NCBI GenBank assembly: GCA_017451425.1
Contig: JAFSPP010000014.1
Span: 1 to 64,000 of the forward strand
Origin: Clostridia bacterium
GTDB taxonomy: Bacteria > Bacillota > Clostridia > Oscillospirales > Acutalibacteraceae
Direction of reading: 5' to 3'
Length of the DNA stretch: 64,000 nt
Shown here: positions 2,479 to 37,571 of the stretch, piece by piece
Layout of the letters: every line of letters starts with the position of its first letter
How positions within the stretch are numbered: position 1 is the stretch's first letter
The notes under the pieces: generated by a model
What the model saw: the letters and a program-made list of their open reading frames with translations, nothing else
Database searches by the model: none
What the model was told of the DNA's origin: nothing
Made by a program: the position numbers and the translations under genes

Positions 2479-4188
2479 TCAATGGTTAAGTCCGTCTTTA
2501 CCGTATTTCTTGTTTATGTTAAGCGGAAGTGCGCAGAGCATGAGATATGTCTGCATCACAGCCTGCTTTACTCTCTTTATGGGGCCCATCCTCGGCATCG
2601 GGACTGAGATGTAGTCCTTCTCCATATCTTTCTTGGAGAGCTTCGGAAGCGGGAACACCGCGTCGTTGTGTGAGAGAGTCGGAGCATCACACGGCTTGCC
2701 TCTTAATGCGCCGAGCGCACGGACAAGTATCATCTCGACAAGGCGAAGGCCTGTCGGAATAAGCCATGGATTGGCCGGGTTTACAATCGGGATTACGGAG
2801 CCGCCCGCCATACAAATGAGCGAGGCGCACTTCGCGGGATCCGCACAACCTGTGGCCTTCCAGAAGCATATATCACCGCAGGTTGCGAGAGTACAGTTGC
2901 CCATTCCGTACTTCTTCATAGGAAGGGCCTCGAGGTCCTCCTTGGTGTAAGGCTTGCCGTTCTTGTCCCACCAGTAGCGGGTACCGTTTACGACAATGCC
3001 GGGGCCTTCAATTACGCATACCTTTACGTTTTCGCCCTTCATTGATTTCTTGTGGTTGAAGAAATCAAGTCCGAACTTGACTGAAGCGAGACAGCCGCCT
3101 GTGCAGGCCTGTTCTATCTGGAGGACCATCTCAGGTGTTACGCTGTTCGGGTCAGTTATCTCAGGTACACCCGGGAGGTTATGTCCGGTAACGGCCATGA
3201 GGTTCGGGAATTCACGCGCTGTCTTCTCATCCATCAGGCTCGCTATTGCCGGACGGAAAGGCGTGACGGTTGTGTCGCCGATAATCTCGACCTTATCATC
3301 GCCGAAGTTACGTTTCGTAGCCTCGATAAGGAGTTTATTCTTTTCAGGGTCGAAGCCCATCATATAAGTCGTGATTCTGTCAGCCTCAACAGACTGGTTC
3401 GAAGCGACAATCTTGCCGACCTTTACGGGGTCAACCGGCGAAGGTGTGTTTCCTTCGCCGCCGATAATACCGTCGATTACGGTGAGATTGGGCTTGAAGA
3501 GATAAAGGAGGTCTGCGAGCTTCTTGTCAATGTCATGGGTGTGGTTCCTCTCACGAAGGAAGTACGGAATTGTACCCATAGCATTCTTAAAGCCGAGCGT
3601 AACGCCGGTGTAGAGGTTGGTTTTCATCTTCGGCACGGAGATATAGTACGCGTCGCCTCTGACAACCTCATCAAGAATCTTAGGCAGATAGACCTCGTTC
3701 ATTACCTCTGCTTTGGGAAGTATATAACGTACGACGGGCTGAAGTTCCATCGCTATGAGTCCGGTATTGTAATACTTCGCAATTTTGTCATAACCTGCGG
3801 CCTTGAAAGCCGTCTTTGTCGGATAGGGCTTGCCTGCCGACTCAATGATGGTTATGTTATCGTTGTACTGCTTGATGTAGGATACGACAGCCTCAAACAC
3901 ACGCGGGTCAGTGTTCTCGGGATAATCCTTCTTGTCGAGAGATACATTGTGATAGACGAAAACGAGGTTCGGTTTGATGAGAATCCTCTTGTAGTCCTTG
4001 AGTTCGTCGGTAAAATGTGTCTTCTCGTCCAGGTCATCAAGAGCGGCATATACCGTCTCCCTGATAGCCTTGATGTCCTTGCGCTTGAAATACTTCTTCG
4101 TTCCGTAGTACTTCGGAAGCGAAGTGAAGTTATTCATATAGTCAAGCTTCGGGGCATCCTTGATGATTACATAACTCTTTGAAGCCAT
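2479..4188 (-). CDS. DUF362 domain protein with cysteine-rich C-terminal part
   Basis: 569 residues, no signal peptide. DUF362 hallmarks are the KPNLV segment around residue 73, KMKTNLYTGVTLGFKNAMG around residue 195, and DGIIGGEGNTP. The C-terminal third contains about eleven cysteines, including CTGGC and a run of spaced cysteines around residues 435-470 (NCTLATCGDIC, GCADPAKC, LIC), which could bind an iron-sulfur cluster or other metal, though not in a classical ferredoxin spacing. Members of DUF362 are mostly uncharacterised; some are annotated as iron-sulfur proteins. It is the first gene of the operon with the two M28 peptidases (15-base gap). GGGGG lies seven bases before the ATG. The biochemical role is unknown. 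Confidence 0.85.
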   Translation of the reverse strand: MASKSYVIIKDAPKLDYMNNFTSLPKYYGTKKYFKRKDIKAIRETVYAALDDLDEKTHFTDELKDYKRILIKPNLVFVYHNVSLDKKDYPENTDPRVFEAVVSYIKQYNDNITIIESAGKPYPTKTAFKAAGYDKIAKYYNTGLIAMELQPVVRYILPKAEVMNEVYLPKILDEVVRGDAYYISVPKMKTNLYTGVTLGFKNAMGTIPYFLRERNHTHDIDKKLADLLYLFKPNLTVIDGIIGGEGNTPSPVDPVKVGKIVASNQSVEADRITTYMMGFDPEKNKLLIEATKRNFGDDKVEIIGDTTVTPFRPAIASLMDEKTAREFPNLMAVTGHNLPGVPEITDPNSVTPEMVLQIEQACTGGCLASVKFGLDFFNHKKSMKGENVKVCVIEGPGIVVNGTRYWWDKNGKPYTKEDLEALPMKKYGMGNCTLATCGDICFWKATGCADPAKCASLICMAGGSVIPIVNPANPWLIPTGLRLVEMILVRALGALRGKPCDAPTLSHNDAVFPLPKLSKKDMEKDYISVPMPRMGPIKRVKQAVMQTYLMLCALPLNINKKYGKDGLNH

Positions 4189-4269: not shown

Positions 4270-5109
4270 TTATTTTTCAAGGAGTTTGAGGTACTTCGGG
4301 ATGGCCTCCTCGAAGTTTACTCCGTACCAGTTGTAGTTCGGATCATTCATCGTGCACCTTATGCACTCGAGCGTGTACTCAACCGCAACGGCAAGGGCCT
4401 CGTAGACGGTAAGTCCGTTCATGAGAGCACCCGTGAATGAGGAGGCATAGATGTCGCCCGTGCCGTGGAAGGAAACCGGAAGATGTTCGTTGTAGTACTC
4501 GAATATCTCATCCTTCTCTTTGTCATAGCACATGACACCGAGTTTGCCCTCTTCAAAGCTCATGCCGGTAAGTACGGCATAGCGCGGACCCAAAGCCGCA
4601 AGTTTTTTCAGAATGTTTTCAATATAGTCGCGTGAATAACCTTCACCGATGTATTCCTCGCCGAGCATAAAGCAGGCCTCGGTGAGGTTCGGAAGGATGA
4701 CGTCAGCCTTGGCGCAGACTGTGGCCATGGCCTTTGCGAAATCTTCAGTAAATCCTTTATAAAGGCAGCCGTTATCAGCCATGGCGGGATCGACGACAAT
4801 AGCCGTGTCCGGGCCTTTGAAGTCGTCGAAGAACTTCTTTACGAGATCTATCTGCTCGAAGGAGCCGAGATAGCCTGTATAAATGGCATCAAACCCGAAT
4901 TTTTCCTTTTTCCAATGCTCTGAAATCGGAGTGATTTCAGATGTCAGGTCGTGGAAGGTAAAACCTTCTTTGAAAGCGGTATGTGTTGACAATACCGCCG
5001 TAGGTAAAATTGCGGCTTCCACTCCCGCTGCTGAAATAATGGGCAGTGCTACGGTGAGCGAGCACTTTCCTACACAGGAGATATCCTGGATTGAGACAAT
5101 GCGCGTCAT
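4270..5109 (-). CDS. pdxY: Pyridoxal/pyridoxamine kinase (PdxY type)
   Basis: 279 residues, usual length for the family. Phosphorylates pyridoxal or pyridoxamine with ATP in vitamin B6 salvage. The N-terminal SIQDISCVGKCSLT, the segment TAVLSTHTAF and the late GTGDIYASSF motif (Asp as catalytic base, Gly for the anion hole) fit the PdxK/PdxY ribokinase-fold family. The sibling HMP kinase ThiD shares the fold, but the SIQD start and STHT segment favour PdxY. The start codon overlaps the stop of the upstream transporter by four bases (ATGA), so translation is coupled. A joint job, with the transporter moving a B6 vitamer, is only suggested by context. Confidence 0.85.
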   Translation of the reverse strand: MTRIVSIQDISCVGKCSLTVALPIISAAGVEAAILPTAVLSTHTAFKEGFTFHDLTSEITPISEHWKKEKFGFDAIYTGYLGSFEQIDLVKKFFDDFKGPDTAIVVDPAMADNGCLYKGFTEDFAKAMATVCAKADVILPNLTEACFMLGEEYIGEGYSRDYIENILKKLAALGPRYAVLTGMSFEEGKLGVMCYDKEKDEIFEYYNEHLPVSFHGTGDIYASSFTGALMNGLTVYEALAVAVEYTLECIRCTMNDPNYNWYGVNFEEAIPKYLKLLEK

Positions 5110-6029
5110 TGCTCTTTCACCTCTTCTTTCTTGTTCTTTGAAGGCAGTTGTGATATCACTATCGCCGCCAGCATTATAAGACTTCCGATATATTCCCTTA
5201 CCGTCATCGCCTCATGCAGGAACAGAGCTCCCGTCAGCGCTGCGAACACGGACTCCATACAGAGTATGAGTGAGACAATCGAAATGTTTGTACCTTTTTG
5301 AGAGAAAATCTGCAGTGTATAAGCCACACCGCTCGACAATATTGCGGTGTACAGCAGAGGGCCGATGGTGTCCCCTACCATACCGGGTTCGGGGATCTGT
5401 CTGAAGGCGAGCATGAATCCCGCACAGACAACAGTCGCTACCGCGAACTCAAAACAGGACAGACGGACGGCATCCACCCGGAGGGAATACTTGTCAACGA
5501 AGGTCATCTGCACGGCATATGTCACCGCACAAAGAATGAGATATATGTCTGTCTTTTCTATGGTAAAGCCGTCCTTTATACAGAGAAGATAAAGGCCGAT
5601 TACGGCTATGAATATGCAAAGCCAGATACGAGCCGGCTGGCGCTTGCCGATTACCATTCCGATAATCGGAATGATGACGATGTAAAGAGCCGTCAGAAAG
5701 CCTGCCTTACCTGCTCCCGAGCCAATTCCCAGCTGCTGGAAATTCATGGCGACTGCGAGCGTAATGCCGCAGAGTATACCGCCCTTTACCATCTCCTTGT
5801 CGGAATGTTTGTAATCCGGTTCGAAGTTCGGATTCTTCTTCCTGATGAAATCAAAGACAAAGACCAGGATGACGAGAAAAGGAACCGCAAAGAGATTGCG
5901 GAAGGTATTGAAAGCAAACGGCGGCATTCTGTCTGCGCCGAGATACTGGGCCGCAAAGGCGGAACCCCAGATGAAAGCCGCGATAAGCGGCAGTATTGTC
6001 TGTCGTACGAAACTTGTATTTGAATTCAT
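5106..6029 (-). CDS. EamA/DMT superfamily transporter
   Basis: 307 residues with about ten hydrophobic segments arranged as two repeats of five, each repeat starting with an EamA-like segment (PLIAAFIWGSAFAAQYLG near the N-terminus; YAVQMTFVDKY near the middle). Family members export or import small metabolites; substrate unknown. It overlaps pdxY by four bases. There is no ribosome binding site upstream: the minus-strand bases before the ATG are A/T-rich and a TTGAAA-17-TAAAAT promoter ends only eight bases before the ATG, so the transcript is predicted to be leaderless or nearly so. A charged C-terminal tail (NKKEEVKEQ) is probably cytoplasmic. Confidence 0.85.
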   Translation of the reverse strand: MNSNTSFVRQTILPLIAAFIWGSAFAAQYLGADRMPPFAFNTFRNLFAVPFLVILVFVFDFIRKKNPNFEPDYKHSDKEMVKGGILCGITLAVAMNFQQLGIGSGAGKAGFLTALYIVIIPIIGMVIGKRQPARIWLCIFIAVIGLYLLCIKDGFTIEKTDIYLILCAVTYAVQMTFVDKYSLRVDAVRLSCFEFAVATVVCAGFMLAFRQIPEPGMVGDTIGPLLYTAILSSGVAYTLQIFSQKGTNISIVSLILCMESVFAALTGALFLHEAMTVREYIGSLIMLAAIVISQLPSKNKKEEVKEQ

Positions 6030-6066: not shown

Positions 6067-6084
6067 GAGAAAGTTTATCAATGT

Positions 6085-6334
6085 AAAGATTAAAGGCGGC
6101 AACTTACGTTGCCGCCTTTCTGACTATTTCATTGGAGTTTACCTCACAGTTTAATTCCGAAAAAAGACTTAACTGTTCTTTGGACTCACCCTTTCAAATT
6201 ATTTCAGGTTAAACATCCGGTGGATTGTCCTCAAGTTGAATCATAACGTACCAACTCCGTTTTTAGTCTAGTCGCTAAAACCTCGATTGTACATTGGAAT
6301 CAATCCCTTCTTTATAAATTCGGAACCTTTTCTT
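6085..6334 (-). ncRNA. Unassigned structured RNA with its own promoter and terminator
   Basis: This 398-base space between genes has no plausible ORF. On the minus strand a near-perfect promoter starts a transcript near 6334 that ends in a strong hairpin at 6092-6119, giving an RNA of about 245 bases. Complementary segments suggest an ordered fold: TTCCGAA (6319-6325) with TTCGGAA (6155-6161); GGATTG (6301-6306) with CAATCC (6222-6227); hairpin TTTTAG/CTAAAA (6275-6280, 6261-6266); hairpin AGTTG/CAACT (6252-6256, 6234-6238). I do not see the signatures of tmRNA, SRP RNA or T-box. Candidates are 6S RNA, a raiA-type RNA, or a riboswitch leader for the transporter downstream. Transcription is well supported; identity is not. 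Confidence 0.65.
6092..6119 (-). terminator. Terminator of the structured RNA
   Basis: Perfect 12-base inverted repeat AAAGGCGGCAAC / GTTGCCGCCTTT with a four-base loop, followed on the minus strand by AATCTTT. The tail is only moderately T-rich. Confidence 0.75.
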
Positions 6335-6340
6335 GTCTCC

Positions 6341-6369
6341 AATATAACACCGTTTCCGGTATATGTCAA
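6341..6369 (-). promoter_or_regulatory. Strong sigma-A promoter of the structured RNA
   Basis: TTGACA (6364-6369), exactly 17 bases, TATATT (6341-6346) on the minus strand. A perfect -35 with a near-perfect -10 is among the best promoters in the window. The spacer contains CCG GAAA CGG, a tiny palindrome. Confidence 0.8.
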
Positions 6370-6427: not shown

Positions 6428-8086
6428 CTATATTGTTGCGGGATTTATCGGCGGTGCATCCGGACCATCGTAGTAGTAGCGTACATTCGCGGCCTGTGCA
6501 ATGTTCAGAGCGTGATCGGCTACACGTTCGAGGTCGGTCAGAGTCTCTACGAAGATGAGGCCCTGTGAGGAATGGCATTCGCCGTCGTGCAGACGTTTGA
6601 CGTGATTGTCCTTCATGACATCTACGAGATCGTCTACCGCCTGCTCCTCAAGGTAGATCTTGTTGTAGGCATCCTGAGAGGGCTCGAAGAGGTGGATGCA
6701 TGCATCGTTGAGAATATTTATGACATCGGTTACGAGCTCTTTAAGCTCAATCATGGCGTCATTGGAGAAAGGTTTATTCTCCTCTTTCATGCGGTTTGCG
6801 TAATCGATCATATTCTCGGCATGGTCGCCTATACGCTCAAGGTCGGTCGTGACATGGAACAGATGACCTATGTGAGCTGCGTCCTGCTCAGAGAGATTGA
6901 GGGACGAGCAGCGGATGAGCGCATCCGTTATGGCCTTATTAAGGAAGTCTATGGTCTTTTCAACCTTCATGAACTTCGCCTTGTCATAGGTCTCATCCGC
7001 AAAGAAGGTATCCGTTGCCGTCTTGAGGTTCTGCTTTGTGAGATCCTGCATACGGCGGATTTCCGCGTCTATCTGAGGGATGCATGTTACGGCTGAAGCA
7101 AGGCCGGCCTCGGTGATATACTCGAGTTTTCCGTCCTCGTGCTCCTTGTCCTCACCGCGTATTATCTTACGTGAGAGCCATGCGATCTGGTTTGCTATCG
7201 GGAATGTGACGAAGCACATGAGAATGCTGAACAATGTATTGGCGTTCGCCATCTGGCGGCTCGGGTCGGACGAAGTGGACTGAATGAGTCCGACAGCCTG
7301 GGGAAGCAGAAGGATGATGGCCATGAAAACGATTGCGCCTATTGTCTCTATTTCAACAACAATCGCCGCGACGCGCTTTGCGTCCTTGCGGCCGCCTATT
7401 GAGGCGAGAATCGGAGCTATTGAAGCACCTATGTTCATACCGAGCATAATGTAAAGGGCCGGTGTGAAGTCAATTGCTCCGGCAAGGAGCATCATCTGCA
7501 AGATACCGACTGATGCGGATACACTCTGCATTACGGCAGTGAAGATGACACCGAAGAGAACGCCGAGAAGCGGGTTCTCAAGGTTGGCAATTATCCTCTG
7601 GAACGACTCCATTTCACGGAGAGGTGTCATGGCACCGGACATCATGCCGAGACCGAGGAATAAAATACCGAGGCTCGCTACAACTGTGCCTAAGTACTTC
7701 ACTCTCTGATTCTTTATAAACATTGTTACAAAGACACCGGCAAAGATAAGTATGGTAGCGTAGTCCGAAATGTGGAACGCGATGAGCTGACCAGTGATCG
7801 TAGTACCTATCTTGGCACCGATGATAATACCGACTGTGCGCTCAAGCTGCATCAGGCCCGCATTTACAAAGCCCACGGCCATTGAACATATGGCGTTGGA
7901 ACTCTGGATGAGAGCCGTGAGGCCCGCACCTACAAGTACGGCAACAAAGCGCTTCTCGGTAAGTTTCGCAAGTATCTTTTTAAGATATTCGCCCGCCATC
8001 TCCTTTAAGGCGTCGGTCATCGAGTTCATTCCGAAAATGAACATCGCGATACCGCCGATAAGGGTGGCTACATTCTGAAAAGTCAT
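6428..8086 (-). CDS. Na/phosphate cotransporter family protein with PhoU-like C-terminal domain
   Basis: 552 residues. The N-terminal half holds two Na/Pi-cotransporter repeats with the typical QSS motif (ALIQSSNAICSM near residue 63, and a second VMQSVSASVGIL near residue 188) within hydrophobic helices. From about residue 330 the protein is soluble and helical with two PhoU-like segments containing DLERIGDHAENM and DLERVADHALNI, the metal/phosphate-regulatory signature. It probably imports phosphate with sodium, with the tail as a sensor. It follows pfkA by 21 bases and has a GGAGA site, so the two are probably co-transcribed; phosphate supply next to a phosphate-consuming glycolytic step is a reasonable link. 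Confidence 0.88.
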   Translation of the reverse strand: MTFQNVATLIGGIAMFIFGMNSMTDALKEMAGEYLKKILAKLTEKRFVAVLVGAGLTALIQSSNAICSMAVGFVNAGLMQLERTVGIIIGAKIGTTITGQLIAFHISDYATILIFAGVFVTMFIKNQRVKYLGTVVASLGILFLGLGMMSGAMTPLREMESFQRIIANLENPLLGVLFGVIFTAVMQSVSASVGILQMMLLAGAIDFTPALYIMLGMNIGASIAPILASIGGRKDAKRVAAIVVEIETIGAIVFMAIILLLPQAVGLIQSTSSDPSRQMANANTLFSILMCFVTFPIANQIAWLSRKIIRGEDKEHEDGKLEYITEAGLASAVTCIPQIDAEIRRMQDLTKQNLKTATDTFFADETYDKAKFMKVEKTIDFLNKAITDALIRCSSLNLSEQDAAHIGHLFHVTTDLERIGDHAENMIDYANRMKEENKPFSNDAMIELKELVTDVINILNDACIHLFEPSQDAYNKIYLEEQAVDDLVDVMKDNHVKRLHDGECHSSQGLIFVETLTDLERVADHALNIAQAANVRYYYDGPDAPPINPATI

Positions 8087-37228: not shown

Positions 37229-37238
37229 TCATATAGCG

Positions 37239-37571
37239 TGATAGGATCTGTAAGCCGAGTTCTGTCTTTTAAGGCAATCATCTATCTAGACCGCCCATTG
37301 CTGAGCGGTTCAAGCCACCCTTCTGCTTTATAGCGGCCGAGCAAGCCTTGCAAGTCGGTGTTGCTCCGGATGGGGTTTACATGGCCACGATGTCTCCACC
37401 GTGCCGGTGAGCTCTTACCTCGCCTTTCCACCCTTACTGCGCAAGCGCAGCGGTATATCTCTGTTGCACTTTCCCTAAGGTCACCCTCGGCGGCCGTTAG
37501 CCGTCATCCTGCTCTTCGGGGCTCGGACTTTCCTCCCGCGTAACACGCCGGCGACTGCCCAATCCAATCAC
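37239..37571 (-). ncRNA. rnpB: RNase P RNA, bacterial class A
   Basis: Catalytic RNA that matures tRNA 5' ends. On the minus strand I read the conserved blocks in order: GAGGAAAGTCCGAGC near 37535 (CR I), GGTAAGAGCTCACCG near 37415 (CR II-III), and AGAACTCGGCTTACAG near the 3' end (CR V). The two ends pair (GTGATTGGAT with ATCCTATCAC, one mismatch), giving helix P1 and ends at 37571 and 37239, about 333 bases. A promoter ends seven bases before the 5' end and a terminator follows, so the boundaries agree. Confidence 0.97.

Follow-up and report, generated by a model that had tools for sequence, protein, structure and literature searches.

6S RNA mimics promoters and sequesters RNA polymerase. 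In toxic minigenes of the lambda barI type, which are phage elements and cause peptidyl-tRNA drop-off, an AUG, one codon and a stop lie behind a strong Shine-Dalgarno site (SD). Leader minigenes, such as mg2 of axe-txe and those of EHEC LEE esp and ler, likewise consist of a strong SD, an AUG, one or a few codons and a stop (PMC8708949). Two-codon mini-ORFs act in cis, probably via RNA protection, and minigenes with a strong SD allow re-initiation without dissociation (PMC8708949). In B. subtilis, RNA becomes more stable with a ribosome-binding site close to its 5' end (PMC3997798). The STAB-SD of cry3A and related 5' stabilisers (Agaisse and Lereclus 1996, cited in PMC3997798) have an SD that complements the 16S 3' end but no start codon that could be used. 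Last, the Gram-positive RosA is a stand-alone RNA in which G-rich regions are repeated and a 7-codon ORF may be present (PMC8216469).

We analysed a stretch of 64,000 nucleotides (the window) from a member of Candidatus Limimonas, Acutalibacteraceae, which is the genus referred to throughout. Judged from its sequence, one interval of the window appears to be an RNA gene in its own right that consists of ribosome-binding units in tandem. This RNA would be loaded with ribosomes and would most likely act as a decoy of initiation, a tentative reading to which we give a little less than an even chance. It seems to represent a kind of RNA not described before, built for holding ribosomes rather than making protein.

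The array shares the strong SD, the AUG, the one or few codons and the stop with leader minigenes. RNA protection by ribosome occupancy is thought to operate in those minigenes, which also re-initiate on a strong SD, and we infer that both may apply to the window RNA. However, leader minigenes are one or two elements in the leader of a protein gene, whereas the arrays form a whole independent gene, are conserved across an order and have a common spacer motif. One kind of unit, which carries AAG instead of AUG, resembles the STAB-SD in having no usable start codon, and in many relatives an SD lies near the 5' end; the STAB-SD is a single element upstream of a coding gene, while the units are repeated and mostly have starts and frames. 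The likeness to 6S RNA is that of a small stable RNA gene from the same neighbourhood in relatives, with a possible analogy in that each would mimic the target of a large machine. However, the array has neither the 6S structure nor a match to RF00013, it has ribosome-binding repeats rather than a promoter-like bubble, and 6S RNA is present separately. RosA and RsaI are also stand-alone Gram-positive RNAs in which G-rich segments recur and a tiny ORF may be present, but in the array every such segment forms a complete initiation site whose frame is closed after a few codons. Unlike the phage minigenes of the barI type, the array is chromosomal, multi-unit and conserved.

The features of the locus are the following (asterisks mark stop codons).

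6341-6369, minus strand: promoter with -35 TTGACA (6369-6364), 17-nt spacer and TG-extended -10 TATATT (6346-6341); 11/12 matches
6088-6335, minus strand: predicted transcript of about 245 nt, bounded by promoter and terminator
6268-6312, minus strand: unit 1, SD and spacer AAGAAGGGATTGATTCCA, ATG at 6294, mini-ORF MYNRGFSD*
6209-6259, minus strand: unit 2, SD CGGAG, ATG at 6244, mini-ORF MIQLEDNPPDV*
6199-6232, minus strand: possible unit 2b, inside unit 2, GAGGACAATCCACCGG, ATG at 6216, MFNLK* in a different frame
6169-6195, minus strand: unit 3, GAAAGGGTGAGTCCA, then AAG at 6180 in place of a start codon
6124-6147, minus strand: unit 4, GTGAGGTAAACTCCA, ATG at 6132, mini-ORF MK* (ATG AAA TAG)
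6080-6119, minus strand: intrinsic terminator AAAGGCGGCAACGTAAGTTGCCGCCTTT with a U-rich tail; 12-bp hairpin at 6119-6092

The RNA gene lies on the minus strand, as do its two neighbours, a Na/Pi-cotransporter/PhoU gene at 6428-8086 and an EamA transporter gene at 5106-6029. A promoter-like site for EamA itself is found at 6066-6038, past the RNA terminator. The promoter TTGACA-17-TATATT is the top-scoring promoter-like site in the region, and its position and sequence are conserved within the genus; the 5' start of the transcript is placed from it, about 6-7 nt past the -10. The terminator stem shows compensatory changes across the genus, with three pairs altered on both sides. Thus, the near-perfect promoter and the strong hairpin terminator described in an earlier note on this DNA both stand and, together with conservation in the genus, they support its proposal of an independently transcribed RNA gene. 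The same note had seen no ORF here. This is correct for long ORFs, of which there is none between promoter and terminator, but not for short ones: the RNA contains four to five very short ORFs, each behind an SD.

The repeated, conserved unit is (A)AAGG-x-TGAGTCC-AATG (or AAAG), which combines an SD, extended complementarity to the 16S 3' end and a tiny ORF. In most units the extension is provided by a conserved TGAGTCCA-type spacer next to the SD; then comes an AUG with a stop 1-11 codons on, or an AAG replacing the AUG. Unit 1 forms a duplex of -15.1 kcal/mol with the 16S tail, and its counterparts in relatives encode MYN* or MHN*. The peptide of unit 2, MIxxED[NTS]PP[DK], is conserved in 7 genus genomes, with 3/4/6 variable sites over the codon positions. 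Unit 2b is the weakest unit and is absent from some relatives; it resembles TCCACC units found elsewhere. The frame of unit 3 reads AAG AAC AGT TAA, with the in-frame TAA two codons after the AAG. Unit 4 ends about 5 nt from the terminator.

A DNA search of relatives found the homologous stretch in 9 genus genomes, including that of the window. Unit 4 (GGTAAACTCCAATG) is present in 9/11 genus genomes and in 5/5 of those with a completeness of at least 90%. This last unit occurs once more in G003 and G010. In a sense-oriented alignment, the blocks that are invariant in the genus are unit 3 GTGAGTCCAA and unit 4 GAGGTAAACTCCAATGAA-TA, not stems, and little is conserved between units. The frames of the mini-ORFs vary among relatives yet remain closed (MYN*, MHN*, MN*, MC*, MK*). 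The string TGAGTCCRAWG occurs once in the 1.48-Mb genome of the window, within unit 3 of the RNA. It is therefore not the organism's general ribosome-binding site, and we rejected an ordinary RBS consensus as its explanation.

The closure of the mini-ORFs is well beyond chance. In a motif scan that was blind to ORFs and compared the unit alone with about 85,000 species genomes, we found 52 distinct ATG contexts, with matches nearly all in Ruminococcus, Oscillospiraceae and Clostridia. An in-frame stop lies within three codons in 43/52 of these contexts, compared with 7 and 5 in the other two frames. Shuffles of the contexts were closed in frame in 11.1 +/- 3.0 cases, with a maximum of 25 in 3000 shuffles. 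A second set of 21 loci, which has a few places in common with the first, gave 27/39 closed in frame against 5 and 8 (shuffles 10.2 +/- 2.7). Thus, as in minigenes, an SD and a start are followed by a very short ORF that is closed above chance in both sets. Met-Tyr-Arg is the most frequent peptide. AAG contexts are less clear: no in-frame bias is seen for a stop within three codons (12/35 vs 20 and 10), and within six codons 31/35 are closed in frame vs 22 and 16.

We took the universal 16S 3' end GGUUGGAUCACCUCCUUUCU as the pairing partner of the units; the assembly of the window does not contain that stretch. The motif GAAAGGGTGAGTCCAA pairs with this tail at -16.3 kcal/mol with one bulged G, and 11/2000 shuffles did as well. 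The AAG unit (unit 3), which is third in the window array and not 5'-most, reaches -15.4 kcal/mol. For the spacer alone 111/2000 shuffles were as good, i.e. it beats about 94% of them, which is suggestive of a spacer that extends the 16S pairing. The bulged G of GUGA-G-UCC is conserved, though pairing with 16S would not require it. Because of this conservation, and because the spacer beats only that share of shuffles, something other than 16S may read the spacer motif.

Outside its terminator, the RNA is not a folded one. The whole RNA folds at z = -2.88 relative to shuffles, but this is because of the terminator: with the terminator removed, z = +0.23 and 120/200 shuffles fold equally well. 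The 'several long-range complementary segments' that the earlier note had reported are therefore at chance level, and we rejected a folded RNA with long-range pairing on the basis of shuffle folding and covariation. The note had asked for compensatory changes in related genomes; RNAalifold on the genus alignment places them in the terminator, with almost none elsewhere. Hairpins between units are also at chance level (mean z -0.35 and -0.71). Rfam 15, at gathering and at permissive (E<=10) thresholds, gave no family match for the interval, and the weak E<=10 matches are the terminator hairpin or chance. The arrays of relatives have no Rfam family match either. This agrees with the earlier failure to recognize a tmRNA, SRP RNA or T-box, and it speaks against the raiA and riboswitch candidates raised at the same time. 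6S RNA, another of those candidates, was rejected because RF00013 does not match the interval at either threshold; the clear 6S RNA of this genome is on another contig (G000:C1:9010-9197, 57 bits). The note's further suggestion, a riboswitch leader ahead of the transporter-kinase operon, is unlikely because EamA has its own promoter-like site and other genera place such an RNA elsewhere. Thus, although promoter, terminator and the z-score of the whole RNA would suit a classical structured non-coding RNA (6S-like, raiA-like or riboswitch), the fold without terminator, the Rfam results and the separate 6S gene leave this reading with hardly any probability. CsrA-type binding is not favoured, as on our reading of the sequence the shared core has no GGA.

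The motif GGTGAGTCCAATG is present in many families of the window's order, and we read arrays in several of them; arrays of 2-7 or more units occur across many families of the order. In a wider sample of the class, most matches outside the order look like chance and lie inside genes; three loci outside the order (L080, L091 and L092) have a unit and a short ORF. Relatives of the array occur in a wide range of Clostridia from gut and rumen and are frequently encoded back-to-back with 6S RNA. In one layout, seen at 39 loci (35 distinct places) of other genera, the array is divergent from a DUF1292 gene, and all units but one are on the divergent side. The first ORF often has 15-18 codons (MVSE.., MDSE.., MEGTS..), followed by ORFs of 1-2 codons and AAG units. 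In 22/39 of these loci, DUF1292 has a 6S RNA next to it that scores above the gathering threshold, on the DUF1292 strand except in L175.

In a second layout, GAAAGGGTGAGTCCAATGTACARGTAA opens the transcript, a variable stretch comes next and AGAAAGAGAGGTTAAA..ATG (MLDIKSEQK*) is at the end, and the final codons and stop of this last ORF belong to the terminator stem. The distance from the end of the -10 box to GAAAGGG is most often 9 nt (21/48), so if transcription starts about 7 nt past the -10, the SD is at the extreme 5' end. Loci that match GAAAGGGTGAGTCCAATG (L111, L116, L119, L125, L130, L134, L138, L139, L142, L147, L149, L171, L177 and L189) have a minimal first ORF of M-Y-R/K-stop or similar. 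Their last ORF is of the MLDIKSEQK type, with its final codons and stop inside a long terminator stem, and some carry further MYx* units, spaced by 43-56 nt. Across this group there is no Rfam match.

In the genus of the window, the DUF1292-6S locus has no array, and the RNA is found between the Na/Pi transporter and EamA instead. We infer from this that the RNA gene probably relocated to the gap between the Na/Pi and EamA genes. The window RNA has the other traits of the arrays of the order, namely the GGTGAGTCC-type spacer, mini-ORFs, an AAG unit and its own promoter and terminator; its homology with the 6S-linked arrays rests on the units, not on an alignment of the parts between them.

Each ribosome bound to an mRNA takes up roughly 30 nt of it. 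The start-to-start distance of consensus units is at least 43 nt (19 loci, 44 gaps), a count that leaves out the possible unit 2b, which lies 28 nt from unit 2 and would break this rule. Gaps cluster at 43-57 nt (19/44), with 48-57 nt being frequent, and another group lies at 102-122 nt. Thus, all units could be occupied simultaneously, and the spacing suits one bound ribosome per unit. In Ruminococcus flavefaciens FD-1 (L187) MR* units are repeated at 70-nt steps, and in L186 AAG units are repeated at steps of about 235 nt. By these repeats, and by the extra units in G003 and G010, arrays are seen to expand by tandem copying of units. The expansion in L187 and L186 suggests that selection may act on the number of units as such.

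Based on the architecture of these arrays and its conservation, we propose a model of how they would engage ribosomes. Ribosomes or 30S subunits would load on every unit. Loaded ribosomes would initiate, terminate almost immediately and could re-initiate on the same strong SD; at the AAG unit, ribosomes or 30S subunits might be held without a start codon. As these ribosomes do not travel, they would coat the whole RNA and shield it from 5' exonuclease and endonuclease. The least certain step is the purpose, which would most likely be that of a decoy: the array would stand in for translation initiation regions and engage initiating ribosomes or 30S subunits. This would apply if one RNA gene can yield enough transcript to occupy a meaningful share of the ribosomes. 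Several findings count against a decoy. By the usual rules, translation cannot begin at the AAG unit, where the bias towards an in-frame stop is weak; the conserved bulged G, the rank of the spacer among shuffles and the conserved peptide of unit 2 also count against it. A broader claim would be that the arrays form a new class of regulatory RNA, the counterpart of 6S RNA on the side of translation, which imitates translation initiation regions and ties up initiating ribosomes or 30S subunits in a reversible manner; we consider this possible but doubtful.

Parked ribosomes may do nothing more than stabilise the transcript, in the manner of a STAB-SD or mini-ORF at the 5' end, with the function residing in the parts between units or in another activity of the RNA. 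Such a role is in line with the single units of 1-3 codons that precede genes resembling those for exported proteins, with the SD at the very 5' end of the MYR*-type RNAs and the variable middle after it, and with the stabilisation of a long RNA by a 5'-proximal ribosome-binding site in B. subtilis (PMC3997798). However, little is conserved between units in the genus, and seven or more units exceed the needs of a 5' block; we regard this explanation as unlikely, though worth serious consideration. We slightly prefer a decoy over stabilisation alone because units are multiplied, little else is conserved, and relatives lie back-to-back with 6S RNA. The repeats might alternatively act as a sponge of the RosA/RsaI type, in which G-rich, SD-like repeats titrate C-rich sRNAs that block ribosome-binding sites. 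The repeats would indeed bind any anti-SD-like sRNA, and the known RNA has a comparable build (PMC8216469), but neither the same-frame AUG-stop in 43/52 contexts nor the spacing of at least 43 nt is explained by titration, which makes a sponge improbable.

PPD is a known EF-P-dependent stall motif. The conserved peptide of unit 2 (MIxxEDNPPD), which contains it, is better suited to a stalling leader peptide than to a plain trap. When one mini-ORF is translated, for instance with a stall at the Pro-Pro of MIxLEDNPPD, this could gate the next unit and finally the terminator. The RNA would then sense the state of translation (the level of EF-P, a tRNA or an initiation factor) and govern readthrough into the next gene, which is EamA in the genus. 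Unit 4 stops just short of the terminator, and in MYR*-type RNAs the last ORF (MLDIKSEQK*) ends within its stem, which would suit a relay of this kind. On the other hand, EamA has a promoter-like site of its own, inter-unit hairpins are at chance level, and we saw no common regulated gene: the array is separate in L056, where the next gene is apparently convergent, and beside DUF1292. We therefore give such a relay a low probability, about that of the sponge.

If the arrays hold ribosomes as a decoy would, then translation initiation itself is the target of a dedicated RNA in common Clostridia of gut and rumen. Control of initiation of this kind is known from proteins; we found no other stand-alone RNA of repeated initiation sites. 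Open-licence papers yielded analogues and no stand-alone gene of tandem mini-ORFs, and a description elsewhere is possible. If true, this would also mean that selection acts on ORFs of 1-3 codons, below anything that gene finders report, and that initiation, immediate termination and re-initiation could be studied on the arrays as a compact natural system. A long version occurs in a cultured species, R. flavefaciens FD-1, and is thus testable.

Several single loci show further variation. Single units with ORFs of 1-3 codons lead genes that resemble exported-protein genes in L052 (MVHL*), L054 (MFS*), L055 (MGS*) and L062 (MG*). In L033, L036, L040 and L061, the first ORF (MVSEEASYQFAGLAAAL*, MVTEETSYSFAGLAAAL*, MVSEIEQQFRTARLAGAH* and MVQSESSQIGGLRPAI*) includes a near-complement of its own GGTGAGTCC site, e.g. 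GGACTCGCC, and the coding sequence could therefore mask the site at which it is initiated. In L056:900-2200, the whole RNA gene is present in two tandem copies about 580 nt apart, each with promoter, unit and terminator. The window also contains a bacterial RNase P RNA of class A (37235-37570, minus strand, 265.5 bits). In L205:1464-3492, the array (2692-3004) points at an RNase P RNA gene on the opposite strand (3147-3492), and DUF1292 and 6S RNA lie on its other side, which places three small-RNA genes within about 2 kb.
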